Positions 31-56,885 of a DNA stretch of 64,000 bases are shown one piece after another (position 1 is the first letter of the stretch; every line of letters starts with the position of its first letter). The notes below the pieces were generated by a model. The model was not told where the DNA came from. It worked only from the letters and a program-made list of their open reading frames with translations, and did no database searches. Source of the stretch: Thermanaerosceptrum fracticalcis (GTDB lineage Bacteria > Bacillota > Peptococcia > DRI-13); the NCBI RefSeq assembly GCF_000746025.2, contig NZ_CP045798.1, forward strand, positions 2,094,501 to 2,158,500, written 5' to 3'. Made by a program: the position numbers and the translations under genes.

Positions 31-366
31 CTATGGTTTCAGTACCTCTTTCAAAATGGCCTGCATTTCGGGCGTCTTCATCGTTTCCACCATGGCCTGG
101 CGCATTTCCGGTGTTTTCATCATCTCCACCATGGCTTGTCTCATTTCCGGTGTTTTCATCATTTCCACCATAGCCTGCCGTATCTCAGGTGTTTTCATCA
201 TTTCTACCATGCCATAGCGGGCCTCCGGCGTTGTCATCATATCTCTCATCATGTTAAAACCATAATTATTATCAGTCCCCGGGCGACGTTGTGGTGCACA
301 GGCGGAAACTATCAATGAAAATACTAGTAGTAAACAAAGGAATTTACATATTTTTCTTATATGCAA
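31..366 (-). CDS. Met-rich tandem-repeat lipoprotein, GerD-like
   Basis: A lipoprotein of about 111 aa. A TTG start at 366 is preferred because GGAGG lies 8-9 nt upstream; the longer ATG reading encodes that ribosome site as Gly-Gly-Gly. The signal peptide ends in the lipobox Val-Ser-Ala-Cys with Cys23. The mature part is almost wholly five 13-residue repeats with consensus MVEMMKTPEMRQA, visible as a 39-bp DNA repeat at about 70-230. Repeats of this kind (Met-Met-Lys-x-Pro-Glu) occur in spore germination protein GerD, so a GerD-like envelope scaffold is one reading. Metal binding through methionines is another. A paralogue lies at 32650-33045. Function is not proven by the sequence. Confidence 0.72.
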   Translation of the reverse strand: MHIRKICKFLCLLLVFSLIVSACAPQRRPGTDNNYGFNMMRDMMTTPEARYGMVEMMKTPEIRQAMVEMMKTPEMRQAMVEMMKTPEMRQAMVETMKTPEMQAILKEVLKP

Positions 367-497
367 AATGTATTTCCCTCCTCCCATAGATCATTTTTCT
401 CTTTTATTTTGTGCAAAACCGGCTCTAAAAAATACTAGGCCTAATGTTAATTCGTAATTTTTTCATGTTTATTAGTAATTTTTTTGTTATTCACAAG

Positions 498-3251: not shown

Positions 3252-3266
3252 GACTGCTCCTCCCTC

Positions 3267-4052: not shown

Positions 4053-4079
4053 GATGAACCTCCTAATCGGGTTATGAAT

Positions 4080-10932: not shown

Positions 10933-10963
10933 GAATCTCCCTCCTCCTGGTTTAATTACAACT

Positions 10964-12262
10964 TTATAATAAATTCCGTTTTTTTGCTTCCGCCCTCAAC
11001 TCATCGCGAAAATCGGGATGGGCGATATTGATTAAGGCTTCGGCCCGCTGGCGCAATGTTTTGCCACGCAAGTTGGCTGCGCCATACTCAGTCACAATAT
11101 AATGAACATCATTGCGAGATGTGGTAACTGCAGCACCTTCGTCCAGCCGTGCAACAACACGCGAAACCGTACCTTTAGCGGCCGTAGAGGGAATGGCAAT
11201 GATGGAACGGCCATTTTTGGCACGAACAGCGCCGCGGACAAAGTCCACCTGACCACCGACACCGCTGTACTGCTGGTAGCCGATGGTTTCAGCCGCTACC
11301 TGACCCATGAGGTCCACCTGTATAGCCGAGTTAATGGAAACCATATTGTCATTCTGGCAGATGATAAAGGGATCATTGGTATAGTTGCCGGGATAAAACT
11401 CCACCATGGCATTTTCATGGAGAAAGTCGTAAAACTCCCGAGTACCCATGGCAAAATTGCTTACAATTTTCCCCGGGTGAAGGGTTTTCTTACGGCCCGT
11501 GATAACCCCGCTCTTTACCAGCTCCATGACCCCGTCGGAAATCATCTCCGAGTGAATGCCCAGGTCCTTCCTGTCCTTCAGGAACGTCAAAACAGCGTCG
11601 GGAATGGCCCCGATCCCCAGTTGCAAGGTATCACCGTCTTTGATGAGCTGGGCAATGTTGTTGCCGATTTTCTCTTCCACAGGACCTATCTTAGGCCGAT
11701 CCAAGACATAAAGGGGATGGGTGTTTTCCACGAAATAATCGATTTCCGAAACGTGAAGGAATGTATCACCATACACTTTGGGCATTTGCTCATTAACTTC
11801 CGCTACAACAATCCGGGCACATTCTGCCGCCGGTTTACTGTAGTCGATGGATATACCTAAACTGCAATACCCGTCTTTATCGGGTGGAGAAACCTGAATT
11901 AAGGCCACATCTACCGGCAGGTATGCGTCACGGAAAAGCCGCGCAATTTCCGAAATGAATACGGGCGTATATTCTGCTCTCCCCTGGGCAATAGCCTCCC
12001 GGGTGGGAGCGCCGGCAAACATTGAATTGTGACGGAAACTTTTCGCGTATTCAGGCCGGCAATATTTACCCGGTCCCATAGGGACCTGGTGTATAATTTC
12101 CACGTTTTCCAGTTCACCGGCCCGGGCCACCAGGGCTTCAATAGTCGACCAAGGTTCGCCGCAGGCATGCTGCACGACAACCCGATCCCCCGAATGAATG
12201 CACTTTACTGCTTCTTCTGCGGAAACCGTTCTTTCCGCATAAATTTTCTGCCACCAAACCAC
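10964..12262 (-). CDS. 4-hydroxybutyrate CoA-transferase family protein
   Basis: 432 aa, acetyl-CoA hydrolase/transferase family (Cat1/AbfT group). It is expected to transfer CoA from acetyl-CoA or butyryl-CoA to a C4 acid. Seen motifs include [14 protein letters not shown] and [14 protein letters not shown] in the catalytic half and [14 protein letters not shown] near the C-terminus. A GTG start follows the stop of the NifU-like gene immediately, with AGGAGG 9 nt upstream inside that gene. Two genes downstream of abfD, 4-hydroxybutyrate is the most likely substrate, by context. Confidence 0.88.
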
Positions 12263-12556
12263 TTACTCATCCCTCCTGCTACTTAAGAATCGTCTGGCCT
12301 CCTTAAGAAGCTCTTCGCTAACCCCGAAAACGGCTTCCACACCTTTTACCCAGGGTAGGGCCGCTTGCACCGTTTCTTTGACCACATTTTCCAGTGTTAA
12401 GTGGGCGGCGGGGCATAAGCCGCATGCCCCTGTTAACTCCACCCGCAAAACATTACCCCCGGTTAATTCCACGACCCGTAAATCCCCGCCATGTTCCCTT
12501 AGTACGTGGCGTACACGTTCGTTCAATACCTTTTCCAGTTCTTCTTTACGTGCCAT
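12263..12556 (-). CDS. NifU C-terminal-domain-like iron-sulfur scaffold
   Basis: 97 aa, only the NifU C-terminal domain, with the cluster-binding CGLCPA motif near residue 46. Such proteins assemble or carry [4Fe-4S] clusters. The gene sits between abfD, whose product needs a [4Fe-4S] cluster, and the CoA-transferase. A dedicated role in loading the dehydratase or the ferredoxin-type partners is an inference from position. The stop codon abuts the GTG start of the next gene. Confidence 0.85.
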   Translation of the reverse strand: MARKEELEKVLNERVRHVLREHGGDLRVVELTGGNVLRVELTGACGLCPAAHLTLENVVKETVQAALPWVKGVEAVFGVSEELLKEARRFLSSRRDE

Positions 12557-12576
12557 TAAACATCATTCTTTCCCTT

Positions 12577-14028
12577 TTATTTTTCTATACCGACCAGCTC
12601 AAAGGCTAACTCTTTCTTTTTCTCCATATTAGCCTGACGCGCAATGACCACTCTCATAGCCTGGGGAGAACCTGCTCCGTGCATGGATTCTGTAAGGTAT
12701 CCTACGGCTGCCCGGCCTAAGGTCATGTTCTCGATGAGGCGGAGCAGGCGGAGGCGGTCTTCAGTTGGTATTCCAGCAACCCCTTGCAAGTATTTCTCAA
12801 CATACTTGCCCAGTTCCGGATGACGGAAGTCTTTCTCTGAAGGTAAAGTTACCATCAATCCGCCGGCAATATCCTGAGCTAATCTGGCTATCTCATAAGG
12901 GAATCGGGTAACGTTTAGTTTACAAACGTTGGCCAATAAAAGATTAATGAGATACGTACCGGAGGCTGTCCGGTTCCCTTCGGCGGAACAAGCGATACCA
13001 CAAGAGTACAGAGTCTCATTCAGGTGAACCATCTCTACAAGCTTGTCCTTAATATGGGAAGCCTTTTCCACTCCATTGAATTGGGCCACAGCAGCAGTGG
13101 CTCCGATGAGGACGTCGCCCACACCAACTTTACAGCCGCCATAGCTCTGACGATGATAACCGGCAAACCGTTCTACCAAGAGACCGGCGAAGTCGTACTC
13201 ACGGCACATGAAAACCCTTTCCCAGGGTACAAACACGTTATCGAAGATGGTAAGCGCTTCTTGCCCACCAAACTTAGCATTACCTTTGTCGATGTCACCC
13301 TCTTCCAAGCTACGTGTATCACAGGACTGGCGTCCATAGATAAAGAAAAGGCCTTTGGCATCGGTTGGAACAGCAAAACTTACCGCATAGTCCTTATCCT
13401 CTTCCCGCATCGCAATGGTAGGCATAACCAGGACTTCGTGGGAGTTGACAATCCCCGTCTGGTGTACTTTAGCTCCCCGAACGACAATACCGTCTTCCCT
13501 TTCTTCCACGATCCTTAAGAAAAGATCAGGATCTGCCTGCTTGCTGGGCGGAAGGCTGCGATCCCCCTTGGGGTCGGTCATGGCCCCATCTACCACCAAA
13601 TCATTTTCCTGAATATAGGCCAGAAACTTACGGAAGCGCTGATGATATTCAGTGCCATATTTTTGATCTATTTCATAGGTAACACTGTCTATGGAATTAA
13701 AGGCATCCATACCTACACAGCGTTGGAAACAAACACCAGTCTTCTGTCCAAGCAGTCTTTGCATCTTAACTTTTTTAACTAAGTCTTCGGTGCTTTGGTG
13801 TAAGTGGGTAAAGCGGTTGACTCTTTTTCCTGTAAGGTTAGAGGTGGCCGTAAGCAGGTCCTCATATTCGGGCTGATTAGCGAGTTCATAAGTCATGGCC
13901 ACCGCATTGATGGAGGGCCTAATAATGGGATGGTCTACCGGGTTTTCCACACGTTCGCCAAACATAAACACCTTAATATTCCGCTGACGCAAACTTTCGA
14001 TGTATTCTTGTCCTGTTTTAAGCGCCAT
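12577..14028 (-). CDS. abfD: 4-hydroxybutyryl-CoA dehydratase / vinylacetyl-CoA isomerase
   Basis: 483 aa. FAD and [4Fe-4S] enzyme that converts 4-hydroxybutyryl-CoA to crotonyl-CoA by a radical route. The cluster ligands are visible: Cys-x3-Cys in KTGVCFQRCVGMDAF (near residue 100) and His-x6-Cys in GYHRQSYGGCKVG (near residue 295). This separates it from cluster-less 4-hydroxyphenylacetate hydroxylases of the same fold. The ATG at 14028 is preferred over a TTG one codon earlier. First gene of the operon, about 50 nt downstream of the predicted sigma-54 start site. Confidence 0.94.
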   Translation of the reverse strand: MALKTGQEYIESLRQRNIKVFMFGERVENPVDHPIIRPSINAVAMTYELANQPEYEDLLTATSNLTGKRVNRFTHLHQSTEDLVKKVKMQRLLGQKTGVCFQRCVGMDAFNSIDSVTYEIDQKYGTEYHQRFRKFLAYIQENDLVVDGAMTDPKGDRSLPPSKQADPDLFLRIVEEREDGIVVRGAKVHQTGIVNSHEVLVMPTIAMREEDKDYAVSFAVPTDAKGLFFIYGRQSCDTRSLEEGDIDKGNAKFGGQEALTIFDNVFVPWERVFMCREYDFAGLLVERFAGYHRQSYGGCKVGVGDVLIGATAAVAQFNGVEKASHIKDKLVEMVHLNETLYSCGIACSAEGNRTASGTYLINLLLANVCKLNVTRFPYEIARLAQDIAGGLMVTLPSEKDFRHPELGKYVEKYLQGVAGIPTEDRLRLLRLIENMTLGRAAVGYLTESMHGAGSPQAMRVVIARQANMEKKKELAFELVGIEK

Positions 14029-42907: not shown

Positions 42908-43030
42908 CTTTAGTCTCACCCTACTTTAAAAAATTATAAATCATCATATCCCTAACAAATTCGCGGCAGTTGGTCCGATACCAGGACATCCACAAGACGT
43001 TTACCGCCAATAATGGTGTTCAGGTACACT

Positions 43031-43501
43031 TTACCCTGGAATTGATCTACTACCTGCCCGATGATGGCAGCATTCAAAACCCACGGCCAGGAAAACTATT
43101 TTTTTCAACGTATTTTCTCTGGCTATTTCTAGAGCATCCAGCGGTGAATAGACTATCTGAACAGCGGCTCCCCCCGCCCTGGCTTGCTGTAAAGAACCCT
43201 TGGTACCAGGTACACGCATCATATCCCCAAAAGTGGTAATGATGACATCCTGATAGCCTGCCAATTCCAGGGCCAGGTCAATGTAACCCTGAGGCGTTAC
43301 GCACACCGGGCAGCCGGGTCCGGAGAGGAGATTTATACTTTCCCGCAACAAATACCTGAGCCCGCTTCTAAAAATAGCATGAGTATGGGTCCCACATACT
43401 TCCATTAAGGTTACTGTACGGCCAAGACGAAGATTTTGCATTTTTTTCCCCAGTAAGGGACCGATGAGTTGAGTACTGTTTTTTTCAATTGTACTAAGCA
43501 C
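43031..43501 (-). pseudogene. hypD: Truncated HypD
   Basis: The first 143 residues are a good HypD: LMEVCGTHTHAIFRSG, the LSGPGCPVCVTPQGYID iron/thiol motif and TTFGDMMRVPG. After IVFLAVGFE the frame becomes CCHHRAGSRSIPG-stop, whereas HypD normally continues for about 220 more residues. In another frame 43080-42952 reads AAIIGQVVDQFQGKVYLN and ends at a TAG; I cannot assign that piece. A deletion joining unrelated DNA is likely. HypD is needed to build the Fe(CN)2CO group, so a working copy must be elsewhere if the hydrogenase is active. Confidence 0.82.
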
Positions 43502-43712
43502 TGTCCACCATCTCCTTTATCAACTGCCAGGTAAGTAATGCTTCCTCTTGATCAATAACTTGAATAGCAAAACCCGCATGGATTAACACGTAATCTCCCA
43601 CATTTACCGGCCTTACCAAATCCAAGCCTACTTTGATCAGCGTATCTGATATTTTCACTACCCCTATGTTGTTTTTTATCTCTATCACCTGTCCCGGTAC
43701 ACCAAGACACAT
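43494..43712 (-). CDS. hypC: Hydrogenase maturation chaperone HypC
   Basis: 72 aa. Starts MCLGVPGQVIEI with the essential N-terminal Cys2, followed by the HypC core DLVRPVNVGDYVLIHAGFAIQ. It shuttles the iron-ligand group with HypD to the hydrogenase large subunit. Overlaps hypD by 8 nt and touches the hypF stop. Confidence 0.95.
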   Translation of the reverse strand: MCLGVPGQVIEIKNNIGVVKISDTLIKVGLDLVRPVNVGDYVLIHAGFAIQVIDQEEALLTWQLIKEMVDSA

Positions 43713-46006
43713 TAGAAATTCCTCCTTTTTCTCACGCCTGCTCCCGCTATTACCGCCTGTCCCAGGGAAATGCCCCCGTCATTGGCAGGTACCTTACTGT
43801 GGGTATAAACTGTAAAACCTTCCCTTTCCAATAGTTGTACTGTTTGACTCAGCAACAAAATGTTCTGAAAAACACCACCGCTTAAAACCACACCCTTAAT
43901 CCCTGTCTCTTTCCGGATATTCATACAACCTATAAAAATTAAATCCGCCACAGTCTTATGAAAACGTGCAGCAATCATTTCCACAGGATATTTGTTCAAT
44001 CGGTCAGCGATAAGCTCATCAAACATAGGTCCTAGTTCAATCTTCCACGGTAATGTATCTTTCTTAATAGTGAAACTATAGCCTGGAACATTGACATCGG
44101 TTAAGGCCAGCTGTTCCAGTTCGATAGCGGCCTGTCCTTCATAGCTGATTTCCTGTCTCACACCTAATAAAGCCGCCACGCCGTCAAAAAGCCTGCCCGC
44201 ACTGGAAGTCAGCAATTTTTTATGTGCGTGTGTCACGAGACCTTTTACCATGGCTAACTTTTGCCCATCGATGTTTTGCAACTCCGGTAAAAACCTTTCG
44301 GGCATGCTTCCCGGAAGCAGGGTGGAAAGGTAACTTACGGCCATGCGCCAGGGCTGTCTGATAGCGGCAGGGCCCCCAGGTAGAGGCACATATTCCAGGT
44401 GGGCCCAGCGTGCAAAATTTCCGTAACTTCCAACGAAAAATTCACCGCCCCAAATGTTGCCGTCAGTACCATAACCGCTGCCATCAAAAGCCACCCCTAT
44501 CACCTCTTCCATTAAGCCGTTTTCAGCCATACAGGAAGCTACATGGGCGTGGTGATGCTGCACGGCAACTTGAGCACATTTCCCCATCTCCTGGGCAAAT
44601 TTACTGCTCAGGTAATCGGGATGAAGATCATAGGCCACCACCCGGGGTCTAATATTGAATACCTTTTGCAGGTGTTCTACGGCCTGTTCAAAAGCCTGCA
44701 TATTACTGAGGTTCTCCAAATCACCGATATGCTGGCTGAGAAAAGCCCTGCTTCCTTTGGTAAGACAGAGGGTATTTTTCAGTTCTCCTCCCACAGCCAG
44801 GATATTGTCCACTTGAAAAGGCAGTTTGAGCGGTAAAGGCACATAACCCCGGGAACGTCTCAACACCATCTCTTTCCCCCTGAAAATACGGACCACTGAA
44901 TCATCGGTACGTATATGAATATCCCGGTTATGGCTAAGAAAGAAATCGGCAATATCCCTAAGATTAGTAAGGGCTTCTCTGTCCACATATTCTATAGCAT
45001 CCCCGCTTTTATTCCCGCTTGTCATGACCAGCACTTCCAGACCTTGGTCAAATAACAGGTAATGAAGAGGAGAATACGGCAGCATTACACCCAAACACCG
45101 GTTACCGGGCGCCACTTCGGGAGCTACGGGCGAGCCCGCCTTTTTCCCTAACAGTACGATAGGACGGCGCTGACTGCTCAGGGCTGTCTCTTCTTCCCTT
45201 GAGACCAGACAATGTTTTTTCACAGTCTCCATGTCCGGCATCATCACGGCAAAGGGCTTGGCCTCCCGGTTCTTGCGGCTTCTTAACACCTGTACTGCAC
45301 TACTATTAAAGGCATCACATACCAGGTGATACCCCCCCAGTCCTTTAACGGCCAGAATGTGTCCTTTTTTGAGTAAGGTTACGGCTTCTGCTACCGGGTC
45401 CTTTACCTCCGAGGGCCTGTCCTGGCCATCCAGCAAGCTAACCTGGGGACCACAGGCCGGGCAGGCATTGGGTTGGGCATGAAAACGGCGATCCCGGGGA
45501 TCATCATATTCTCTTTGGCAGTCAGGACACATAAGAAAGCCGGCCATAGTGGTCAGGGAACGGTCATAAGGGACGTCTTTGATAATGGTGAAACGGGGAC
45601 CACAATTGGTGCAGTTGATAAAAGGATAGCGATAACGCCTGTTCTCCGGATCCTTTAACTCTTCCAGGCACTGGGGACATGTGGCAGTATCCGGCGAAAG
45701 GAGAGTAAATTTCTCTTCTCCTCCCTCACTATCCTTGATGACAAAATTCTCATAATTAACCGGAGCCAGTCTGGTTGCTGTTATTTCCTCAATGAGAGCC
45801 AGAGGAGGGGCTTCCTCGTTCATCCGTTCCGAAAACTTTAAGAGAACTGGTTCCTCACCTTCTATTTCCAGTTCCACACCCCGGACGGTATTGTTAACCC
45901 AGCCTTTTACCCCTAAACTCTGGGCCAGGTTATAAACAAAGGGGCGAAAACCCACCCCCTGCACCACACCTTTGATATGCATATGAATCCTTACTGTCTT
46001 AGGCAT
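43712..46006 (-). CDS. hypF: Carbamoyltransferase HypF
   Basis: 764 aa, full length. An acylphosphatase domain at the N-terminus (VQGVGFRPFVYNLAQ), two zinc-finger sets (CPQCLEELKDPENRRYRYPFINCTNC and CPDCQREYDDPRDRRFHAQPNACPAC), a YrdC-like domain (around 200-380) and a Kae1-like carbamoyltransferase domain (HHHAHVASCMAE, FDGSGYGTDGNIWGGEFF). It makes the thiocarbamate that becomes the cyanide ligand, normally passing it to HypE. No hypE is present in the window. Confidence 0.96.
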   Translation of the reverse strand: MPKTVRIHMHIKGVVQGVGFRPFVYNLAQSLGVKGWVNNTVRGVELEIEGEEPVLLKFSERMNEEAPPLALIEEITATRLAPVNYENFVIKDSEGGEEKFTLLSPDTATCPQCLEELKDPENRRYRYPFINCTNCGPRFTIIKDVPYDRSLTTMAGFLMCPDCQREYDDPRDRRFHAQPNACPACGPQVSLLDGQDRPSEVKDPVAEAVTLLKKGHILAVKGLGGYHLVCDAFNSSAVQVLRSRKNREAKPFAVMMPDMETVKKHCLVSREEETALSSQRRPIVLLGKKAGSPVAPEVAPGNRCLGVMLPYSPLHYLLFDQGLEVLVMTSGNKSGDAIEYVDREALTNLRDIADFFLSHNRDIHIRTDDSVVRIFRGKEMVLRRSRGYVPLPLKLPFQVDNILAVGGELKNTLCLTKGSRAFLSQHIGDLENLSNMQAFEQAVEHLQKVFNIRPRVVAYDLHPDYLSSKFAQEMGKCAQVAVQHHHAHVASCMAENGLMEEVIGVAFDGSGYGTDGNIWGGEFFVGSYGNFARWAHLEYVPLPGGPAAIRQPWRMAVSYLSTLLPGSMPERFLPELQNIDGQKLAMVKGLVTHAHKKLLTSSAGRLFDGVAALLGVRQEISYEGQAAIELEQLALTDVNVPGYSFTIKKDTLPWKIELGPMFDELIADRLNKYPVEMIAARFHKTVADLIFIGCMNIRKETGIKGVVLSGGVFQNILLLSQTVQLLEREGFTVYTHSKVPANDGGISLGQAVIAGAGVRKRRNF

Positions 46007-46730
46007 AGTTGATCTTCTCTTTCTTGGCTTTAACTTTTTCCATCAGGTAAATAAACCAGATACTGGATTCATAGAGCAGGATAACGGGTAAACACACCCC
46101 AGCTAATGTCAAAAGATCCGGTGACGGGATAATGATACCCATGGCCATGAAGATGCTGATATATCCATACATCCTGGTAGCTCTGAGCTTGCAGGATTTA
46201 ATCACGCCGAGCCTGCTCAAAGCTACCATAACCAGGGGGATCTGGAAAAGGAGTCCCATGGCCAGGGTTAAGAGAACCAAAAAAGAAAAATACTTACTGC
46301 CAAGGAGCATAGGGTTAAGATAGGCCTCGCCAATACCTATAAAAAAATGTAATACGAAGGGAAAAAGTATCTGTTTACCAAATAAAACACCCAGAAAAAA
46401 CAGGATAATGGCCGGGGGTATGGAAGAGAAAATAACTCTCCTTTCTTTGGGGGTACAGCCCGGCAGAATAAAGGCTAATACTTGGTAGACAAAGACGGGC
46501 AACCCCAGCATAATCCCCCCCACCACCGCAATCTGAATGGTTATAAAAAAACCGTCGGCAGGACCGGTAAAATGCAGAGTCTTCCCCCCCAGAGGGGCAA
46601 GAAGCCACCTGATGACATTATCCATATTGAGATAAACCAGAAGTGCACCTATGAGAAAAGCTGTAAGAGAGAAGAGCAGGCGATAGCGCAGTTCTCCCAG
46701 GTGCTCAACTACCGACATTTTCTTATCCAT
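45999..46730 (-). CDS. tatC: Sec-independent translocase TatC, copy 2
   Basis: 243 aa from the ATG at 46730 (AGGGG 6 nt upstream). Six helices. VEHLGELRYRLLFSLTAF at the start carries the conserved Glu and Arg that recognise the twin-arginine signal. PGCTPKERR and the IITSPDLL-like segment (GIIIPSPDLLTLAGVCLPVILLYE) are typical. It differs clearly from the TatC at 46966. With tatA between them, the cluster encodes two TatC proteins for one visible Tat substrate, the hydrogenase. Confidence 0.92.
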   Translation of the reverse strand: MDKKMSVVEHLGELRYRLLFSLTAFLIGALLVYLNMDNVIRWLLAPLGGKTLHFTGPADGFFITIQIAVVGGIMLGLPVFVYQVLAFILPGCTPKERRVIFSSIPPAIILFFLGVLFGKQILFPFVLHFFIGIGEAYLNPMLLGSKYFSFLVLLTLAMGLLFQIPLVMVALSRLGVIKSCKLRATRMYGYISIFMAMGIIIPSPDLLTLAGVCLPVILLYESSIWFIYLMEKVKAKKEKINYA

Positions 46731-46764
46731 ACCTAACCCCTGTCTTTGTATGATCAATGAAATA

Positions 46765-46962
46765 TTATTTACCTGCTTCCTGTGGATTCACTTCTTTTTT
46801 GGGTTCATCATTAGCTTCACTGAGAACACTGTCTTTAGCTACTCTAAACTCCCGAACCGCTTTTCCCACTGCACGGCCCACGTCAGGCAGTTTTCCGGGT
46901 CCAAAGACAATCAAGGCGATGACTAAAATCAGTACTAATTCGGGTAAACCTAAGCTTGGCAT
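46765..46962 (-). CDS. tatA: Sec-independent translocase TatA
   Basis: 65 aa. One helix (PELVLILVIALIVFGPGKLPD) with the conserved FGPGKLP hinge and an amphipathic helix (GRAVGKAVREFRVAKD). It forms the translocation pore with TatC. It is sandwiched between the two tatC genes. Confidence 0.95.
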   Translation of the reverse strand: MPSLGLPELVLILVIALIVFGPGKLPDVGRAVGKAVREFRVAKDSVLSEANDEPKKEVNPQEAGK

Positions 46963-46965
46963 AAT

Positions 46966-47703
46966 TTATACCTCCTGTAAAGTTTCCTGTCTTTTTTTGC
47001 TGGACTTTTCCAGAGTTGAAACCACTAAAATGCTCAGTTCATACAAGATAAACACCGGAACACTGGCCACCATTAGTGTAAAGATATCAGGGGTGGGCGT
47101 AATAAGAGCCGTCAGTAACAAAATGCCCAGAAGAGCAAACTTGCGTTTTTCCCGCAGCATCCGGGAAGTTATAATCCCCACTGCCGCCAGGACCGCCACA
47201 ATGAGGGGCAGCTGAAACACAACCCCCATACCCAGAGAGAGTATGATAACAAAAGAAAAATAGCGGCCGGCCGATAACATTGCCGTCATGTAGGCCTGTC
47301 CCGTCTCTAAGAGGAAGTTTAGGGTAACAGGCGTGATTACAGTAAAACCAAAGACCACACCCACGGTAAACAACAGGGTTGCCAATGGTATCACCCAGTA
47401 AAACACCTTCTTCTGCCTCTCCCCCAGCAAGGGTGCCGCCAAACGGATAGCTTGCCAGAGTATCAAGGGCAGGCACAGGGCAAGGGCAGTAAAGAAAGCG
47501 ATCTGGATTTTGGTCATAAAGCCTTCCATAGGGGAAAGAAAGACCAACTGCCGCTGACCCAGAGGCCTTGCCAAAAAAGTAATCAGCAGGTCTGTGCGCC
47601 AATAAACAAGGACAGTCACAGCCAGCACTGTTACTGCAGAAAAGATAAGAATCTTACGGAGCCGTTCCAGCCGGTCAACTATCTTTACATAATTAATGAT
47701 CAT
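46966..47703 (-). CDS. tatC: Sec-independent translocase TatC, copy 1
   Basis: 245 aa from the second Met (ATG at 47703, GGGG 7 nt upstream). Six helices, FLLETGQAYMTAMLSAGRYFSFV and TPTPDIFTLMVASVPVFILYELSI. The N-terminus lacks the HLxELRxR motif seen in copy 2 (it reads VDRLERLRKILIFS), so it is the more divergent of the two. It may act only together with copy 2. Confidence 0.88.
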   Translation of the reverse strand: MIINYVKIVDRLERLRKILIFSAVTVLAVTVLVYWRTDLLITFLARPLGQRQLVFLSPMEGFMTKIQIAFFTALALCLPLILWQAIRLAAPLLGERQKKVFYWVIPLATLLFTVGVVFGFTVITPVTLNFLLETGQAYMTAMLSAGRYFSFVIILSLGMGVVFQLPLIVAVLAAVGIITSRMLREKRKFALLGILLLTALITPTPDIFTLMVASVPVFILYELSILVVSTLEKSSKKRQETLQEV

Positions 47704-47746
47704 GGCCATACCCCGTTCGTCAAAACCTGTTTATAAAGAAAAGTAC

Positions 47747-48445
47747 CTAAATAGCCTGTTGATAAGGATCCTGCCCCTTGAAAAAAGCCTGTTTCTTCCT
47801 AACTCTTTCTTTGAGATGCTCCGCTAACCTGGGGATACCCTCTCCCGTACGGCAAGATACATTAAAAGTTTCCAGCCCGGGATTGATGATGTTGATATCA
47901 GCCAGGGCCTGCCTGGCAGAAAAATTAGTCTGCTCTATCAGGTCAATCTTATTGATAATGACGAGATTGGCCCTTTGGAACATGGCAGGATATTTGGCAG
48001 GCTTATCGTCACCCTCGGTTACACTGAGCGCCACCATTTTAAGGTCTTCCCCCAGGTCATAACTGGCCGGGCATACTAAATTGCCCACATTTTCGATCAC
48101 CAGCAGTTCTATTTCCTCCAGGGGCAGGTTAGCGAGAGACTCTTTAATCATGTTGCTGTCCAGGTGACAGCCGCCGCCGGTATTGATCTGGACTACGGGA
48201 ACCCTTTGCTGTTCAATACGTTCTGCATCTTTGGAGGTATAGACATCTCCCTCGATGACTGCAATTTTTACTTCATCCTTCAGTTCCCTGATCAATTTCT
48301 CCAGGATCGATGTCTTGCCAGCCCCGGGCGAACCCATAAAGTTGATGACAAAGATCCCACGACGGCTAAATTCTTTTCTTAATTCCAGTGACAATACATC
48401 ATTAGCTTGTAAAATATCGGAGACCACATGAATTTTTTTACACAC
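47747..48445 (-). CDS. hypB: Hydrogenase nickel-incorporation GTPase HypB
   Basis: 232 aa from a GTG at 48445 that has GGAGG 9 nt upstream inside hypA. P-loop GSPGAGKTSILEKL, metal-site Cys-His in NTGGGCHLDSNM, ENVGNLVCPASYDLGED and guanine motif NKID. It lacks the long His-rich nickel-storage N-terminus. Overlaps hypA by 8 nt. Confidence 0.95.
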   Translation of the reverse strand: MCKKIHVVSDILQANDVLSLELRKEFSRRGIFVINFMGSPGAGKTSILEKLIRELKDEVKIAVIEGDVYTSKDAERIEQQRVPVVQINTGGGCHLDSNMIKESLANLPLEEIELLVIENVGNLVCPASYDLGEDLKMVALSVTEGDDKPAKYPAMFQRANLVIINKIDLIEQTNFSARQALADINIINPGLETFNVSCRTGEGIPRLAEHLKERVRKKQAFFKGQDPYQQAI

Positions 48446-48803
48446 TTTTTTCTTCCTCCAGTTCACTTTCTCCGGTTATGGTATCCACATACAGCTCTTT
48501 ACCGGTAAGCATCTCGTAATCGGGTTTGACTTCACACTTACATCTTAAATTAGTGATGCCGGCCAATTTTTCTCCACAAGCACGGCACCTGCCACTCACA
48601 CCTACCGTAGTAATAGAAAACTCGGCGTCTTGAGCCACTGAATCACGGGCAAAAAAGGAGAAGGCAAACTTTAAGGCCTCCGGTTCTACTCCGGAAAGTT
48701 CCCCCACCACCACATGGACTTTCTCCACTTTTTTCAGGCGGTGTTTGGCGGCATTTTCCATAACGATCTCAAAGATGCTCTGCATGATGGAAAGCTCGTG
48801 CAT
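48438..48803 (-). CDS. hypA: Hydrogenase nickel-incorporation protein HypA
   Basis: 121 aa. The N-terminal nickel ligand is MHELS (His2). The zinc site is formed by CRACG and CKC in the C-terminal half. It passes nickel with HypB to the large subunit. A GGGGG/CCCCC stem-loop lies in the 48-bp gap to the protease gene upstream. Confidence 0.95.
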   Translation of the reverse strand: MHELSIMQSIFEIVMENAAKHRLKKVEKVHVVVGELSGVEPEALKFAFSFFARDSVAQDAEFSITTVGVSGRCRACGEKLAGITNLRCKCEVKPDYEMLTGKELYVDTITGESELEEEKSV

Positions 48804-48851: not shown

Positions 48852-49307
48852 TTAATGAATCTGCTGTACTTCCTTTTCCACCGTATCCATAATGAGGGGA
48901 AGAACCCTTTCTATCTCCGGAGTTAACTCCAGGGACTCTTTGATTTCCTTGGGTTCAACGCCAATAATGATGACTTCCGGATATTTCCCCATCATAGCCG
49001 CAAGCCTGATAAGGTCTAAAACCTGGGTATCATGGAGAGAAATTTCCGAGGAGTAATAACTGCCTAATTGTTCTGGCTTAAGACGGTAGATGGTACCGGG
49101 AGAATATCCTCCTTTCAGGCTGTCTACTATCACTACACGTTCATTGTCTAAAAACAAATCCAGCATGTCCAGGGTGGAAGTCCCTCCGTCCACTATGTCA
49201 ACGTAAGGCAGTGAACCTTTTTCCTTCAGTTTTTCGACCACTCTTATCCCAATCCCGTCATCCTGCAAAAGGATATTGCCAATGCCTAGAACCGCGGTTT
49301 TCTTCAT
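48852..49307 (-). CDS. Hydrogenase maturation endopeptidase (HyaD/HybD type)
   Basis: 151 aa. GIGNILLQDDGIGIRVVE with the nickel-binding Glu/Asp, DGGTSTLDMLDLF and IIIGVEPKEI are the family motifs. It removes the C-terminal peptide of the large subunit after nickel insertion. Overlaps the large-subunit stop by 4 nt. Confidence 0.94.
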   Translation of the reverse strand: MKKTAVLGIGNILLQDDGIGIRVVEKLKEKGSLPYVDIVDGGTSTLDMLDLFLDNERVVIVDSLKGGYSPGTIYRLKPEQLGSYYSSEISLHDTQVLDLIRLAAMMGKYPEVIIIGVEPKEIKESLELTPEIERVLPLIMDTVEKEVQQIH

Positions 49308-50743
49308 CCATTGACCCCCACAGCATTGGGATAACCAATGACAAATTCCTTGTCTACACCTTTCTCGGGATTAATGACATGGACTGCGCAGCCGGTACAG
49401 GGGTCAAAGGAGTGGACGATGCGCAGGAGTTCTACAGGCTGGTCGGGATCGGCTACCGTAGTGCCAATCAAGGCCTGTTCCATGGCACCCCCAATGCCGC
49501 TGTCATCTTTGGGTGAGGCATTCCAGCAGGTAGGAGTAATTACTTGATAAGTGGTAACTTTTTTAGCGGTGATTGTGAGCCAGTGTCCCAGGGCGCCCCG
49601 GGGAGCGTCAGTCAGGCCGATACCCATCCCTGCATCCGGTGGCGTAGTGATTTTCTCGTAGGCGTTTACCCCCGGGGCCAGCTCATTCAACCAGCCTTTC
49701 AGGGCTTCAGCTATCTTTTTCGTTTCCAGGGCTCTCGCTTTAATCCGGTCCATCACAGATACGCCCCCGGCATAATCGCCGTTGATTTTCATGCGAGCCA
49801 GGGGTCCCACTTCATATACTTCTCCTTCGTAGCGTGGCGCCTTTAACCAGGTATAGGCGTCTTTCTTACCGTATTGAGGTATGGTCTGACCCTGGGCAGG
49901 ATTTAAGCCGCTGGGACTGGAGTAATAGGAATACCCCACATATTCCTTAATTTTATCCAGATCTACACTACCGGAGGTTCCCTCTTTGATGATTCCCTGT
50001 TTAAAGAGGGTACTGCCATCAGGCTGATCAAAAACCCCATAACTCAAAAGATTCCCCGGACCTTTACCAATATCGAAATAATCGCTGTAAACCCGGGCCA
50101 GCAGTTCCACATCAGACAGGTATTTATTATTGATGAAGCTGGTGACCGTGGCCAGATAATCCTTCATCCTGCTGATCTGGTCGGCATCAGGGGCCATGGT
50201 CACTCCACCCGGAGCAATACTCATGACATGAGGCACCCTGCCTGCTAGAATAGCTGCCATTTCCTGGGCCTGGCGCCGGACTTGCAGGGCCTCCACGTAA
50301 TTGTTAATCAGGCGCTCCGTCTCCGTGCTGCTCAGCCGCATATCCACACTATAGCCGGGCGTCCAGGGATTCATCTGGGGTCCTACAATGTAGTCCATGA
50401 GGTTCAAGTGGTAAAAATGGAGGATGTGGTCCTGCATGTAATTACTGCTCTGAATGACCGTACGGCGCAGAATAGCCTGTTCACTAGGGGTAAAACCCAT
50501 GGCCTGCTCATTGGCCTTGACCGAGGCTATGGCATGGGAGACAGGACAGACCCCGCAAATCCTCTGGGTGATGTGGATGGCATCCCAGGGATGTCTGTTC
50601 TTTAGTATATTCTCCATATCGCGGTAAAGGTTGCCCGTAACATTGGCTGAAGCTACTTTGTTGTCCTTATCCAGTTCAACCTTGATTTTCAAATGGCCTT
50701 CTACCCTGGTTACCGGGTCTATGGTAATAACTTTCTTAGACAT
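49304..50743 (-). CDS. [NiFe] hydrogenase large subunit
   Basis: 479 aa. Both nickel-binding motifs are present: L1 RICGVCPVSHA (near residue 62) and L2 DPCTGCAVH (near residue 450). The 20 residues after the final His (VINPEKGVDKEFVIGYPNAV and on) form the peptide removed by the protease. Conserved HLKIKVELD at the N-terminus. Group 1-like membrane-uptake type by overall pattern, but no cytochrome b gene follows. Confidence 0.96.
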   Translation of the reverse strand: MSKKVITIDPVTRVEGHLKIKVELDKDNKVASANVTGNLYRDMENILKNRHPWDAIHITQRICGVCPVSHAIASVKANEQAMGFTPSEQAILRRTVIQSSNYMQDHILHFYHLNLMDYIVGPQMNPWTPGYSVDMRLSSTETERLINNYVEALQVRRQAQEMAAILAGRVPHVMSIAPGGVTMAPDADQISRMKDYLATVTSFINNKYLSDVELLARVYSDYFDIGKGPGNLLSYGVFDQPDGSTLFKQGIIKEGTSGSVDLDKIKEYVGYSYYSSPSGLNPAQGQTIPQYGKKDAYTWLKAPRYEGEVYEVGPLARMKINGDYAGGVSVMDRIKARALETKKIAEALKGWLNELAPGVNAYEKITTPPDAGMGIGLTDAPRGALGHWLTITAKKVTTYQVITPTCWNASPKDDSGIGGAMEQALIGTTVADPDQPVELLRIVHSFDPCTGCAVHVINPEKGVDKEFVIGYPNAVGVNG

Positions 50744-50779: not shown

Positions 50780-51787
50780 TTACATTCCACCGGAGCTCAT
50801 TCCACCAGATCCCGTTCCGCCGGAAGTCGTACCACCAGAGCCCATTTCACCGGAACCCATGCCCCCGGAACTCATGGAGTGGGAACCCATGTCTCCCATA
50901 CCTCCATAATAAAAGGGACCAGCGGGGAAAGTGGGTGAAGCACAGCTTATACACTGCATATTCGCTTTATCGATACACCAGTTGACACCGTTATTCCATT
51001 TGAGGAGTGGACAGGTAAACACGGTACTTGGCCCTTTGCAGCCAATTCCTTTATAACAGCCAAATTTGCCGTATTGGTCTACCATGGTGGTATGTCGGCG
51101 GGGGCAATTATTATGAACATAAGTTGTGTAATATTCCACAGGCCGGCCATACCGGTCCAACCTGGGCATGCCCTTGGTCAATAAAGTTACAATGGTGCCC
51201 ACCATCACATTAGGATGGACCGGACAGGATGGTAAATTGATTATGGTATTTTTCGTTTTGCCTTTTAAAACTTGAGCCACTGTCTTGATGCCTGTATAAG
51301 TTGAAGGTTTGACTACGCCGCCGAAAGCTGCACAGGTCCCGACCGCAATCACATATTTGGCTTTGGATCCCAGTTCGTTTACGGCATCCAGCATCGTCCA
51401 ATCTTTACCCCCTTTATCGGCAATAACACAGTATTTTCCGTTAACACCAGTAGGGATACCCCCTTCAATACAGAGAATAAACTCACCCGCATATTTATCC
51501 GAGGTGTCAATGATAGAGGTAACCGCCAGGTCGCCGGCGGCCGCGGCAAGGTTGGGATGATACTTCACACTGACTTTATTAAGCAGCACATCATCAATAG
51601 TGGGGTTGGCCGCATTCAACAATGATATAGAACACCCGGTACACATGGCACCCTGCAGCCAAATCACCGGGGGGCTTGTACTAGCAGCTAAGGCCTGCTC
51701 TACTTTTACCAGATCTAAAGAAGTCAATCCTAATGCCGCTGCAGAAGCGGTAATCCATTTCAGAAAATCCCGTCGATTAATTTGCAT
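50780..51787 (-). CDS. [NiFe] hydrogenase small subunit with Tat signal and Met/Gly/Ser tail
   Basis: 335 aa. Tat signal INRRDFLKWITASAAALG at the N-terminus. Proximal cluster ligands are in WLQGAMCTGCSISLLN and GTCAAFGG, and medial and distal cluster regions in NLPSCPVHPNVMVG, FGCYKGIGCKGPSTVFTCP and NMQCISCASP. In place of the usual C-terminal membrane helix the last 45 residues are MGSHSMSSGGMGSGEMGSGG-type repeats. The complex is thus exported by Tat but has no visible anchor. Confidence 0.95.
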   Translation of the reverse strand: MQINRRDFLKWITASAAALGLTSLDLVKVEQALAASTSPPVIWLQGAMCTGCSISLLNAANPTIDDVLLNKVSVKYHPNLAAAAGDLAVTSIIDTSDKYAGEFILCIEGGIPTGVNGKYCVIADKGGKDWTMLDAVNELGSKAKYVIAVGTCAAFGGVVKPSTYTGIKTVAQVLKGKTKNTIINLPSCPVHPNVMVGTIVTLLTKGMPRLDRYGRPVEYYTTYVHNNCPRRHTTMVDQYGKFGCYKGIGCKGPSTVFTCPLLKWNNGVNWCIDKANMQCISCASPTFPAGPFYYGGMGDMGSHSMSSGGMGSGEMGSGGTTSGGTGSGGMSSGGM

Positions 51788-51874: not shown

Positions 51875-51928
51875 ATTGTAAATGAGCAAATTTACGAAAC
51901 ATTGTCGTGGAATTGACTTTTTCGTGAC
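51875..51928 (-). promoter_or_regulatory. Degenerate direct-repeat promoter before the hydrogenase operon
   Basis: Minus strand: GTCACGAAAAA then GTCAATTCCAC (51928-51907), 26 nt continuing GACAATGTTTC and GTAAATTTGCT in register, then -10 TACAAT (51880-51875). Same layout as the ten clear promoters but weaker repeats. Confidence 0.45.
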
Positions 51929-52011
51929 ATTTACATTAGATAAAGAAGGAGCTATTGACAAAGGTATTACCTTTCAGCTCATACCCCCTTTTTCATTTTG
52001 GTTTTGTATAT

Positions 52012-52041
52012 AAAAAAAAGGGTCTTCCTAAAGGAAAACCT
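52012..52041 (-). terminator. Terminator after rsgI
   Basis: Minus strand stem GGTTTTCCT / AGGAAGACC (one mismatch) followed by a tract of eight T residues. Confidence 0.8.
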
Positions 52042-52072: not shown

Positions 52073-53020
52073 TTACCTCATGTTCATCGGTTGTTTGGGG
52101 GTCATGGGCGAACCTTCAAAAGTATTTGGTGTTGGTGATTGATTATTATCAGGCATACTCATGTGATTAGAAGTGGGGGTCCGCCAGCCAGATCCAGACT
52201 GCATACGGGAACCCTTATTTGCTGAGCTATCCTCCTGTCCCTGGAGACTATTCTTAGTGACCGTTCTATGCATACCAAACAGTTCTTCCGGTGATGTTCC
52301 CACCTCATTTAACACATTGCGCATTTGCCCGTGTTTTATTTTTTCTGTTGTTAATTCATAACCTTTAGCCTTACCCTGTTCATAAACATAATACTGACTG
52401 GCAGTGAGTCGCAATTCATTAGCCCTCTCTATAAACTCTCTGTCATGCTTGCTTACAACCATCATCATACCGCTATACTGCTCCTCATTAAGAGCCTTCA
52501 TAATGGCCTCTTTAATTTTAGATTCTTCTAAGGGATTCTTTCCCTGATTTTTCAGTTCAGCTAAATTTACCAACAATATACCATCTTTGTCTTCCAGCAT
52601 TCCCATTCTTTTAACCTCAGAGGTCAATGCAGAAACGGCTTCATACACATCTTTACCCTTCAGTTGGATATTTGTTAAATCGTTAATGGAATCGGCATAT
52701 TTGACTTTAATCACCTTATTGTTTTGATCAGTCCAGAATTCTACACCACCCGTATTTAGTTCCATACTTAAGTAAGCCTGGGCCTGTTGTACAGGGTATA
52801 CCGTACCCATAAATACAAGAAGCAGGACTGCCGCAGCGACAGCAGCTATCCGCCACATTCCGCTAGCTGCCGGTCGATTATACTCTACATTTTCAATATT
52901 TAATACTTGTCCTACCTGATGGGAACTTTTTTTTGGTATTTTCATAAAGTGCCCATCCTCAGTATAGGCCACTGTACAGCGGCCTTCTACAGACATGATC
53001 ATTGCCTTGCTAGATTTCAT
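52073..53020 (-). CDS. rsgI: RsgI-like anti-sigma factor
   Basis: 315 aa from the ATG at 53020. A short N-terminal cytoplasmic domain (residues 1-55, MSVEGRCTVAYTEDGHFMKIP) of the RsgI type binds SigI. One membrane helix follows near 60-80, then an extracellular domain with AYLSMELNTGGVEFWTDQNN, a feature of RsgI proteins that is linked to self-cleavage. The C-terminal 70 residues are Met/Pro/Ser/Asn-rich, with no carbohydrate-binding domain. Directly downstream of sigI. Confidence 0.88.
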   Translation of the reverse strand: MKSSKAMIMSVEGRCTVAYTEDGHFMKIPKKSSHQVGQVLNIENVEYNRPAASGMWRIAAVAAAVLLLVFMGTVYPVQQAQAYLSMELNTGGVEFWTDQNNKVIKVKYADSINDLTNIQLKGKDVYEAVSALTSEVKRMGMLEDKDGILLVNLAELKNQGKNPLEESKIKEAIMKALNEEQYSGMMMVVSKHDREFIERANELRLTASQYYVYEQGKAKGYELTTEKIKHGQMRNVLNEVGTSPEELFGMHRTVTKNSLQGQEDSSANKGSRMQSGSGWRTPTSNHMSMPDNNQSPTPNTFEGSPMTPKQPMNMR

Positions 53021-53039
53021 GATAACCACTCCCTTTTTT

Positions 53040-53747
53040 TCAAGGAATATTAGTGAATTGCTTTAAAGGAGTTAACCGGGAGTCAGTAAAAATTACTGCC
53101 AGGGCAATTACGTATTTTCTCCCCTTCTCCAGTACCTTTCTACTTAAACCGGTAGACTCACACAAGTCTTTCAGGGGGAGCTGTCCGTTTTTTTTCCAGA
53201 AATCTAGCATATCCCTGTCATTAACAAGAGCGAGTGCAGCCTGGAGAAGGGATTCCCTGGTGTCCCTGTGCTTTGGGGAATATTCAGGTAGTTCATTTAG
53301 ATCTATCCCGTACACTGCTAATCTGCTCCGGTAATAATCTATCAAATGGACCAGACTCTCCTGGGAGTTACTTTCCTGGTAACTTAAAAAGGCCTGGGCC
53401 TCTGCGGCCCTTTCCAGTTCATTGGTTTCCTCAAGAGGTGTCGTAAGTACCTCACGTTGAAACTTAGCCTGCCCTCGAAAATAATCAATGAGACGGCGCT
53501 TGATCACCATCTGGGCATAGGTGGTAAACTTTACTTTTCCGTTAGTGTCAAATCCGTCGATGGCCTCATTTAAGGCAAGTAAACCAATGCTCAACTCTTC
53601 GTCATTCTCCCAGTTAAGATACCTTTTACAGGTCATTGAACAGATCTGAGCCACAAAGTTGCGATGATTGCGGATTAGCTGTTCCCGGGCGTACTCATCA
53701 CCTCTTTGGGCTCGCTGAATATGCTGTTTTAGACCTAGTAAGAACAA
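53040..53747 (-). CDS. sigI: RNA polymerase sigma factor SigI
   Basis: 235 aa, usual SigI length. Region 2 reads LSIGLLALNEAIDGFDTNGKVKFTTYAQMVIKRRLIDYFR. The C-terminal part (LKDLCESTGLSRKVLEKGRKYVIALAVIF) is the SigI-specific DNA-binding domain rather than a sigma-70 region 4. The best start in frame is a TTG at 53747 with AAGGGG about 10 nt upstream. Paired with rsgI downstream; probably autoregulated. Confidence 0.93.
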   Translation of the reverse strand: MFLLGLKQHIQRAQRGDEYAREQLIRNHRNFVAQICSMTCKRYLNWENDEELSIGLLALNEAIDGFDTNGKVKFTTYAQMVIKRRLIDYFRGQAKFQREVLTTPLEETNELERAAEAQAFLSYQESNSQESLVHLIDYYRSRLAVYGIDLNELPEYSPKHRDTRESLLQAALALVNDRDMLDFWKKNGQLPLKDLCESTGLSRKVLEKGRKYVIALAVIFTDSRLTPLKQFTNIP

Positions 53748-53938: not shown

Positions 53939-56101
53939 TTAAAATAAGCGGCTTAACCTTAATAACATAACTGTTGCTTCAGCTCTACTGGCATTTTTTT
54001 GCGGATAAAACAAGAGTTGCCCTTCTAAGGGAATACCTTTCGTTATATTAGCACGCATAATCTTTTGAACGCTCTCCTTAGCCCAGCCTGCAATGCGTCC
54101 TTTGTCTGCAAACATCTCCAGGTCTAATGTTACGTGCCCGATTTTTTGCATATCCAACTTTGCATAGGTCATGGCATTTGCAATCATGACCGCCATTTGT
54201 TCCCGTGTAATAAATTCATTGGGCCTAAACTCTTCCGCACTATAACCACTGACGATTCCTGCCTGATAGGCCTTGGCAAGGCTCTCAAAATACCACTGGT
54301 CTGGCAACACATCTTTAAAAGTAATTGAGGCTTTATCCTCAAGTTTTAGTATTCTTACCAAGATTGCTGTAAATTCTGCCCTTGTGATATTTACTTCCGG
54401 TCTAAAGGCATGGTCCTCATATCCACTAACCAACCCCTTGCCCGCCATTTCCAAAATATCATTTTGAGCCCAATGACCTTGAGTATCTGTAAAATCTCGT
54501 ACGGGGCTTTCATTGGAAGTATCTTCGCTTTCACCGCCGGAATTATCCACCCCTCCCGCTCTACTCAAGATGGCATATTTACTAAAGTGGTTAGTGGTAA
54601 AAGTCAATGTTCTTTCCTCAACATTATGGCTGGCTTGCAGAGGCTGCACTTTAGACTCCTGTTCGTTAAGGTAAAAGGCATCCAGGGTTAAGTGTGATGT
54701 GTCCTGCCAGTATTTTTCCGGCACAGGCATTGTTACCTTAATAGCTTCACTATATTGGCTAAATTCTTCCTCTATCCCGTTATCAGAGACAATTATCTTA
54801 AATTCATAAATCTTATCAGCCAGTTTAAAGGAGGTACCTTCCACAAGTTTGTTAATATCCCCTGTACTCACTGCCTGGGCACTAAAACTCACCGTTGAGT
54901 TCCGGGGTACGTCCAGAATCTGGGGATTAAAAATGAACTTAACCCCGTTTAAGGATAATGCTACGGGTTTATTTGCTTCAATTAATCGCGCTAGTTGCGC
55001 TTCGGTAAGCTCAACCTTATCAGCACCAGTACTTGCCGTCAGGCTAATTTGTTCGTCAGCCTGGCTGATAGCTTGCTGTATCTGGTCATTGGAAAAGGTG
55101 CCCTGAGGTGCGGTAGTATCGTTGTTATCTGAGGAATCGTTACCTGTGTCATTAGAGGAATCGTCATCCGAGTCATCCGTTGGGACCATCTCTATAGGGT
55201 CCAAAGTAACATCCTCTTCACCTACTAGAATCTCTTCTGAGAGATATTCCTCATAACCAGGGGCCGACACTTTTAAAATATAATTTCCTGGGACGACCTT
55301 AATGGTAAAATTTATTTCCTGGCTTTCTGCGGTCAGGTTTAGAGGCATAGGATCCATGCTCATGTCTTTACCAGGCTGCACAAGAGAGATACTGACATTT
55401 ACACCCGGTTCCAGTCCTGTTATCACACCGGTTATTTGTTTAATATGCAGATCAGCAGTGACATCGCTATCCTCAACCTTTATGGGCATCATGGCCGCCG
55501 CGACACTGTTAATATTGACACAAAAAACGTAATCACCTGCAGGTACATCTATAAAACTGAATTCTACCACACCTTCTTCCAGGGTTACTTCCTGGAAAAT
55601 ATCCTCTCCGCGCATTAACATTAATTGTACCTGCTCGCTGTCCGCTATCCCGTAGATTTTTCCACTGACAATAAAGCCCAGTCCTTCCTCATTTTCCGTC
55701 ACTGTTTCTTGGGAATCACCATTTGCGGGCGTAAGGCTAACCTGCCCCTCATTACTACCAGTGTCGCCAATATCCGTCTCACTACCGGTGCCGTTGTCCC
55801 CGGTTGGAACGGGATCATTGGGACTTTCACCACTTTCATTGTTTGAATTGCTTACATCAGAAGTAACTTCATTCTCACTAGGGGCGCTACTATCACTTTT
55901 ACTGTTACTGTCATTAATGTCGGCAGGTACCTCTTCAGGGGCAGCATAGACTTCCTCCGTTACTGTGGTACTATGATCCGTATGGGTTTCATCAGCTAAA
56001 GCAGTATTCATACCACCAAAAGAGATCATATTTAACAGCATGAAAAATACTAAAGCCACAGAACTTAACTTCACGATAAACCTTGATTTAGCTAATTTCA
56101 C
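53939..56101 (-). CDS. S-layer-homology (SLH) domain surface protein
   Basis: 720 aa from a GTG at 56101 (GAGG 8 nt upstream), giving a proper signal peptide ending Thr-Ala-Leu-Ala-Asp. Residues about 45-135 are a Ser/Asp/Glu/Asn-rich linker. From 140 to 315 come two carboxypeptidase-regulatory-like beta domains (GKIYGIADSEQVQLML, PGNYILKVSAPGYEEYL). A second acidic linker and a domain of about 150 residues follow. Three SLH domains end the protein (about 540-720: FTDTQGHWAQNDILEMAGKG, FKDVLPDQWYFESLAKAY), anchoring it to cell-wall polymer. The target or enzymatic role is not visible. Confidence 0.88.
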   Translation of the reverse strand: MKLAKSRFIVKLSSVALVFFMLLNMISFGGMNTALADETHTDHSTTVTEEVYAAPEEVPADINDSNSKSDSSAPSENEVTSDVSNSNNESGESPNDPVPTGDNGTGSETDIGDTGSNEGQVSLTPANGDSQETVTENEEGLGFIVSGKIYGIADSEQVQLMLMRGEDIFQEVTLEEGVVEFSFIDVPAGDYVFCVNINSVAAAMMPIKVEDSDVTADLHIKQITGVITGLEPGVNVSISLVQPGKDMSMDPMPLNLTAESQEINFTIKVVPGNYILKVSAPGYEEYLSEEILVGEEDVTLDPIEMVPTDDSDDDSSNDTGNDSSDNNDTTAPQGTFSNDQIQQAISQADEQISLTASTGADKVELTEAQLARLIEANKPVALSLNGVKFIFNPQILDVPRNSTVSFSAQAVSTGDINKLVEGTSFKLADKIYEFKIIVSDNGIEEEFSQYSEAIKVTMPVPEKYWQDTSHLTLDAFYLNEQESKVQPLQASHNVEERTLTFTTNHFSKYAILSRAGGVDNSGGESEDTSNESPVRDFTDTQGHWAQNDILEMAGKGLVSGYEDHAFRPEVNITRAEFTAILVRILKLEDKASITFKDVLPDQWYFESLAKAYQAGIVSGYSAEEFRPNEFITREQMAVMIANAMTYAKLDMQKIGHVTLDLEMFADKGRIAGWAKESVQKIMRANITKGIPLEGQLLFYPQKNASRAEATVMLLRLSRLF

Positions 56102-56217
56102 CGTCTTAACCTCACTTAATTTAATTTTCAAAGAACACAAGTACTTAAACTTTCTAATCAATTTACATATATTTTAAAACCCTCTCCTTTCCTAGAGCAT
56201 TAATTATTGACATAGCT

Positions 56218-56396: not shown

Positions 56397-56885
56397 GTGA
56401 ACAAAAACCGTATTTTCCTTACCGTAACCACTGTAGCCTTAGGTCTCTCTTTAGTAGGCATTGCCAATGCCAGCACCATGAAGGCTGCCTTCGTGGGTCA
56501 ACCCCCCGAAACTGTCCAGCAACGGGTGTATATGAACCAGAACCGGCCCCAAGACATGTTTACGCCAAAAAATGTAGATGCAGCCGCAGGTCTTTCCCAA
56601 GACACTACGTCTGCCGATTCATCCGCCAGTTCCCAGACCACTCAACTGTCGGATACTAACAAGCCTTTTGTGATGGGACCAGAGATGATGCAAGAAGGCA
56701 CCGCTTCTTACCAGCAAATGCTTGAAATCCACAAAAACAACCAGAAAGAAATGGCCGAATTCCACAAAAATATGCCTCAACATTCAATGGGACAGGGATT
56801 TGCCGGTATGCATAATGCCAGTGAAAAAGATGGTTCCAACAAATCCTTCCGTGGTCCTATGGGCAGAGGCATGATGGGTCGATAA
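56397..56885 (+). CDS. Secreted Met/Gln-rich protein
   Basis: 162 aa from a GTG with AAGGAGGAG upstream. Signal peptide of about 25 residues (ends Ile-Ala-Asn-Ala-Ser). The mature part has no known fold: a Gln/Pro/Met region, a Ser/Thr linker, a charged helix (YQQMLEIHKNNQKEMAEFHK) and a Gly/Met/Arg tail (GPMGRGMMGR). Met and His content suggests metal binding, as in the Gly/Met-rich protein at 19947, which has a similar tail. A possible SigI promoter precedes it. Confidence 0.7.
   Translation: MNKNRIFLTVTTVALGLSLVGIANASTMKAAFVGQPPETVQQRVYMNQNRPQDMFTPKNVDAAAGLSQDTTSADSSASSQTTQLSDTNKPFVMGPEMMQEGTASYQQMLEIHKNNQKEMAEFHKNMPQHSMGQGFAGMHNASEKDGSNKSFRGPMGRGMMGR

Follow-up and report, generated by a model that had tools for sequence, protein, structure and literature searches.

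Results

A hydrogenase operon whose small subunit ends in a repeat tail

The window (the whole 64,000-nucleotide stretch of the Thermanaerosceptrum fracticalcis genome that we analysed) carries a [NiFe] hydrogenase operon in which the small-subunit gene is followed downstream by genes for the large subunit, protease, HypA, HypB-like protein, TatC, TatA-family protein, second TatC and HypF, in that order. The features are:

50780..51787, minus strand, [NiFe] hydrogenase small subunit, 335 aa, with Tat signal RRDFLK (domain matches, solved-structure matches)
50783..50905, minus strand, 41-residue Gly/Ser/Met/Thr tail after PFYY, residues 295–335 (translation)
50783..50875, minus strand, degenerate 15-bp tandem repeat encoding a Gly-Gly-Met-Gly-Ser unit (TRF; codon-shuffle test)
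49304..50743, minus strand, hydrogenase large subunit, 479 aa, with RICGVC and DPCTGC motifs and Cys (TGT), not Sec
48852..49307, minus strand, hydrogenase maturation protease (HycI family)
48438..48803, minus strand, HypA
47747..48466, minus strand, HypB-like GTPase (CobW/HypB/UreG domain)
46966..47709, minus strand, TatC, first copy
46765..46962, minus strand, TatA-family protein, 65 aa, between both tatC genes
45999..46757, minus strand, TatC, second copy (86 of 253 aligned columns identical to the first)
43712..46006, minus strand, HypF

The small subunit consists of a Tat signal (TAT_signal score 23.2 against a cut-off of 22.7 bits) and the Oxidored_q6 and NiFe_hyd_SSU_C domains (PF01058 and PF14720, scoring 91.7 and 56.9, both above the cut-off of 27), and it scores 217.5 with TIGR00391 (hydA) against a curated cut-off of 179.5 bits. 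The tail that follows PFYY reads GGMGDMGSHSMSSGGMGSGEMGSGGTTSGGTGSGGMSSGGM and is rich in methionine (7 of 41 residues vs 6 of 257 in the mature core); Asp, Glu and His occur once each, and Cys is absent. TRF describes the underlying DNA as a repeat of period 15 with 6.2 copies and 69% matches, and identity at lag 15 is 0.61, whereas codon-shuffled sequences give 0.30 on average; as none of 20,000 shuffles reached the observed value, the repeat is far beyond chance. The original prediction of a Ser-Gly-Gly-Met-Gly-type tail encoded by a degenerate 15-bp repeat is thus confirmed, although the tail is about 41 residues long and not 45. In the AlphaFold model the tail has a pLDDT below 50, but the whole small-subunit model is weak (mean pLDDT 59.6, with 135 residues below 50), so the low confidence in the tail says little. 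A PDB fold search, made with this weak model as input, confirmed the family and ranked the soluble periplasmic group first.

A search of the whole genome for the Gly-Gly-Met DNA pattern with up to two mismatches matched this gene only, in one cluster of four places, and we therefore rejected the idea that Met-rich tails are a habit of the exported proteins of this genome. With up to one mismatch the pattern was found in 5 of the 45 genomes around G198 and in 5 of 60 relatives. The non-hydrogenase matches include what we take to be small YjcZ-like proteins (L164, L165/L168), GroEL tails (L170, L172) and internal segments of a histidine kinase (L167) and a CRISPR-RAMP-like protein (L171); a further match lies inside a short reading frame (L169), and L166 gave no reading frame. 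The GroEL C-terminal Gly-Gly-Met tail is likewise a disordered Gly/Met repeat (as described in the excerpted text of PMC4379175; also seen in G019 and G043), but GroEL is a cytosolic chaperonin unrelated to hydrogenase and the resemblance goes no further. No report of a methionine-rich C-terminal tail on a hydrogenase small subunit was found in the open-licence library searched.

Several other features of the window were noted. A truncated hypD of about 145 residues (42953–43501, minus strand) runs out of frame into the apparent 3' end of hypE, recognised by comparison with the tail-less relative G191, and this is likely to be a hypD–hypE deletion scar; two intact HypD genes are found elsewhere in the genome. 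A 27-bp imperfect palindrome in the upstream region of the operon (51903–51929, TGTCACGA...) is a possible candidate operator. A terminator-like hairpin (52021–52040) lies 3' of rsgI, which belongs to a sigma factor and RsgI-like anti-sigma pair near the hydrogenase (52073–53747, minus strand, in the window and 11160–12831, minus strand, in L032), with RsgI ending Ser/Met/Pro-rich in both. A link between this pair and the hydrogenase was considered and dropped, because the terminator-like site lies between them, the arrangement in L032 differs and the L033 contig has no such pair upstream. Met-rich sequences also occur in a GerD-like lipoprotein (31–387, minus strand), in which a 39-bp DNA repeat gives rise to a Met-rich repeat of 13 residues, and in a small signal-peptide-like protein (56397–56885, plus strand) with a Met/Gly-rich C-terminus ending RGPMGRGMMGR, for which Pfam gave no match.

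The enzyme resembles soluble periplasmic hydrogenases

The best solved matches to the small subunit are soluble periplasmic enzymes (2wpn, 4kl8, 1cc1 and 3ze6), with the alignment extending to residue 293. The soluble [NiFeSe]/[NiFe] enzymes of Desulfovibrio and Desulfomicrobium (2wpn, 4kl8, 1cc1; HydDB group 1a) are likewise exported, two-subunit and unanchored, their core ends at the same place, and the alignment shows that they share a Cys at the medial-cluster position, which we take to be the one making the medial cluster a [4Fe-4S] cluster, as we also assume the ligand roles of the cluster cysteines. The window enzyme differs from these in having Cys in place of Sec in its large subunit, in its hypA, hypB, tatC–tatA–tatC and hypF operon and in its Gly/Ser/Met tail. 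Selenocysteine is absent (DPCTGC is encoded with a TGT codon) and the NCBIfam NiFeSe models score below their cut-offs (286.6/470, 552.1/600 and 494.9/780), and the C-terminal membrane helix and adjacent cytochrome b gene of the membrane-bound group 1 uptake hydrogenases are also absent. An export signal is present and a membrane anchor is not, which are presumably the features that define HydDB group 1a, and from its nearest relatives we regard the enzyme as group-1a-like. Group 1a is listed as periplasmic in Table 1 of PMC5037454. The group 1a hydrogenases of clostridial acetogens, as presented in the excerpted text of PMC9431212, are two-subunit enzymes mostly without an adjacent cytochrome b5-type gene; unlike in the window, no Tat signal was found in them, and that excerpt mentions no such tail.

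Small subunits without an anchor are common

We classified by script the C-termini of all 132 loci whose small-subunit match reaches the C-terminus, a set that includes duplicates (e.g. L032 = L118 and L033 = L119). These comprised 82 hydrophobic C-termini, 38 short ones (L032/L118 only because the assembly has a gap there; contig ends truncate L024 and L089), five with a CXXCH motif, two that are Gly/Ser/Thr-rich (one gene counted twice) and five others (of which L016, L030 and L141 resemble anchors just under the threshold). Anchored homologues are found within the same phylum (L002, L004–L007, L009–L015), and L002, the second hydrogenase of the same genome, is one of them. The nearest unanchored relatives stop at or near the core (L003, with PFYKF*, L034–L039 and L120–L124). 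Subunits of the Clostridium, Fervidicella, Paenibacillus and Desulfosporosinus type (L003, L034–L039, L102, L120–L124) are 48–56% identical and several have tatC pairs nearby, but unlike the window they have no tail. The original prediction had presented the missing anchor as unusual; it is normal in the periplasmic type and in close Gram-positive relatives.

The five small subunits with CXXCH (L046, L050, L052, L056 and L058) come from Desulfuromonadales/Geobacter and Nitrospirae MAGs and carry this heme-type motif at their C-terminus, where the window has its tail; such C-termini are possibly covalently attached electron exits.

In a tree of 29 rows picked by us from the fetched loci, the window and L033 pair together (100/99) inside an unanchored clade of 17 rows (99/97). 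The 15 other members of this clade (45–56% identical) end no more than 19 residues past the core, and none has a long tail or an anchor. On this tree the tail is an addition that is new relative to the unanchored relatives and apparently confined to one small lineage.

Orthologous tails and the distribution of the gene

The L033 small subunit is 77% identical to that of the window and has a tail of 38 residues, GGMGSGGMGSGSIGSGGTTTGGMGSGGTTTGTTTGRMR, which was read again in an overlapping contig. It should be noted that this is the sole complete orthologous tail, that it comes from a low-coverage MAG contig (cov 1.37), and that the hydrogenase gene is interrupted upstream by an N run. The L033 and L151 contigs have the same operon gene order as the window (with genes named by their likeness to those of the window). 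A second ortholog (L032/L118, the same gene fetched twice; 80% identical) begins its tail with FYYGGMG before an assembly gap of N; this 2-N gap in the Desulfosporosinus UBA8487 MAG (L032 6897–6898; L118 1500–1501) falls exactly at the start of the repeat and hides the tail. Comparison of the orthologues as originally proposed shows that the five-residue Gly/Ser/Thr period is kept in the one complete tail, but methionine is not kept at several units, where Thr or Ile often replaces it.

Between five units of the window and seven of L033, differences at first, second and third codon positions number 42, 49 and 118 of 175, counts which are not independent as the units are related by duplication. 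This third-position excess suggests that the tail is probably translated and that its amino-acid composition is constrained.

Orthologues of 77–80% identity occur in the genomes reached through L032 and L033. The best match in the congener G001 (80% complete) is only 39% identical (E 2.9e-59), which fits an anchored enzyme like the second hydrogenase, and a plasmid search returned 124 records, all below 60% identity. Horizontal transfer of the hydrogenase would be a natural inference from this distribution.

Tat genes are linked to unanchored hydrogenases

With the TatC proteins of the window as queries, and counting loci of 8 kb or more, matches were found in 13 of 28 unanchored loci vs none of 31 others, where the unanchored set was hand-sorted from the short and CXXCH classes (omitting L118, L024 and L089) and the two sets also differ by ancestry. 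This association is linkage and not proof of a dedicated translocase. Tandem tatC pairs are found in seven loci (L034, L036–L039, L044 and L062). We note that the module order in the window is tatC–tatA–tatC (45999–47709, minus strand), with the L151 module at 3186–4969, and that the L034 module (9854–11554) has the order tatA–tatC–tatC. The genome of the window has an additional TatC elsewhere (C1:1121357); in G191 the sole TatC found is the hydrogenase-linked one. We found no report in the open-licence library searched of a paired tatC tied to a hydrogenase and the Tat system.

Cytochrome b genes lie elsewhere in the genome

The hydrogenase operon genes examined include no cytochrome b, as had been predicted. 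The proposed check for such genes elsewhere returned only two PF01292 matches in the genome (C1:2265720 and C1:77267), both outside the window: one of these cytochrome b561-type genes adjoins the second, anchored hydrogenase, and the other is clustered with a gene for a ResB-like protein and with c-type cytochrome genes whose products have 6 and 10 CXXCH motifs. The multiheme c-type cytochromes of this genome are possibly acceptors for the unanchored hydrogenase. G191 has no cytochrome b561 above the cut-off and no match to Cytochrom_c3_2 (the one c3-type family searched), and a cytochrome partner is therefore not necessarily general.

Discussion

The tail might be the wreck of an anchor lost through a frameshift or sequencing error, and the anchored homologues in the same phylum would fit such a loss. 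However, reading the tail region by eye in both alternative frames of the minus strand revealed no long hydrophobic helix, the nearest relatives (45–77% identical) are unanchored and L033 has the same kind of tail. We looked for anchored orthologues combined with a frameshift here and did not find them; we rejected this explanation as highly improbable, and the tail sequence and frames bear out the prediction of a small subunit without a C-terminal membrane helix. The suggestion that the tail methionines bind a soft metal (e.g. Cu(I) or Ag(I)) or aid assembly draws on the seven Met and one His in 41 residues, and is weakened by the L033 tail, where Met falls to 4 of 38 with no His and Thr or Ile replaces it in several units; Cys is missing from both tails. 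From these sequences we consider metal binding improbable.

Neutral growth, in which slippage at a free C-terminus produced a harmless and useless tail, is unlikely in our view. It would account for the 15-bp tandem array, for the different lengths (41 vs 38 residues) and diverging units of the two tails, and for the fact that most unanchored relatives do without one, but between the two arrays the third codon position differs two to three times as often as the first and second, and neither lineage has lost the open frame, with cores that are 77% identical. Alternatively, the tail could attach or dock the enzyme specifically to the cell wall, the S-layer or a partner cytochrome, and so replace the anchor and hold the enzyme near its acceptor. 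It sits exactly where anchored relatives have a helix and five relatives have CXXCH, its composition is kept in L033, and an SLH-domain protein is encoded nearby (53939–56161). We nonetheless consider this rather unlikely, as we recognised none of the known wall-binding motifs in the tail, and many relatives have neither tail nor anchor (the 38 short C-termini), so that this enzyme type needs neither.

The explanation that we favour, with moderate confidence, is that of a Tat-exported, soluble, group-1a-like [NiFe] uptake hydrogenase with a later-added unstructured tail that is not a specific metal site. Small and large subunits are intact, the Tat signal is present and the cluster cysteines align with those of soluble periplasmic enzymes. 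The hydrogenase would work outside the membrane and reduce an extracytoplasmic electron carrier, for which the multiheme c-type cytochromes encoded elsewhere in the genome are possible candidates. The tail may have grown by duplication of the 15-bp unit in one small lineage and have persisted there as a flexible Gly/Ser/Thr/Met chain with almost no charge, occupying what would be the position where other lineages have either a membrane helix, a CXXCH motif or no extension. Most likely its role is either to keep the enzyme soluble or, through weak contacts, to tether it loosely to a partner or the cell surface. Since the small subunit lacks an anchor and the operon lacks a cytochrome b gene, the enzyme probably resides outside the membrane, free or only loosely attached, which agrees with the original suggestion that it is free or wall-associated. 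The absence of an anchor is ordinary, and the tail is a rare lineage-specific variant with a putative function only.

A bolder and rather doubtful idea is that the C-terminus of unanchored [NiFe] small subunits is a slot for acceptor-reaching devices (a membrane helix, a CXXCH heme, or, in this case, a Gly/Ser/Met tether grown by slippage, as a means of non-membrane retention) within a self-contained tatC–tatA–tatC exported-hydrogenase cassette that would move between Gram-positive lineages. There is no good explanation yet of how Gram-positives link exported hydrogenases without an anchor to respiration, and the tail, the CXXCH C-termini and the linked Tat modules provide a concrete comparison set for enzyme retention and electron hand-over.
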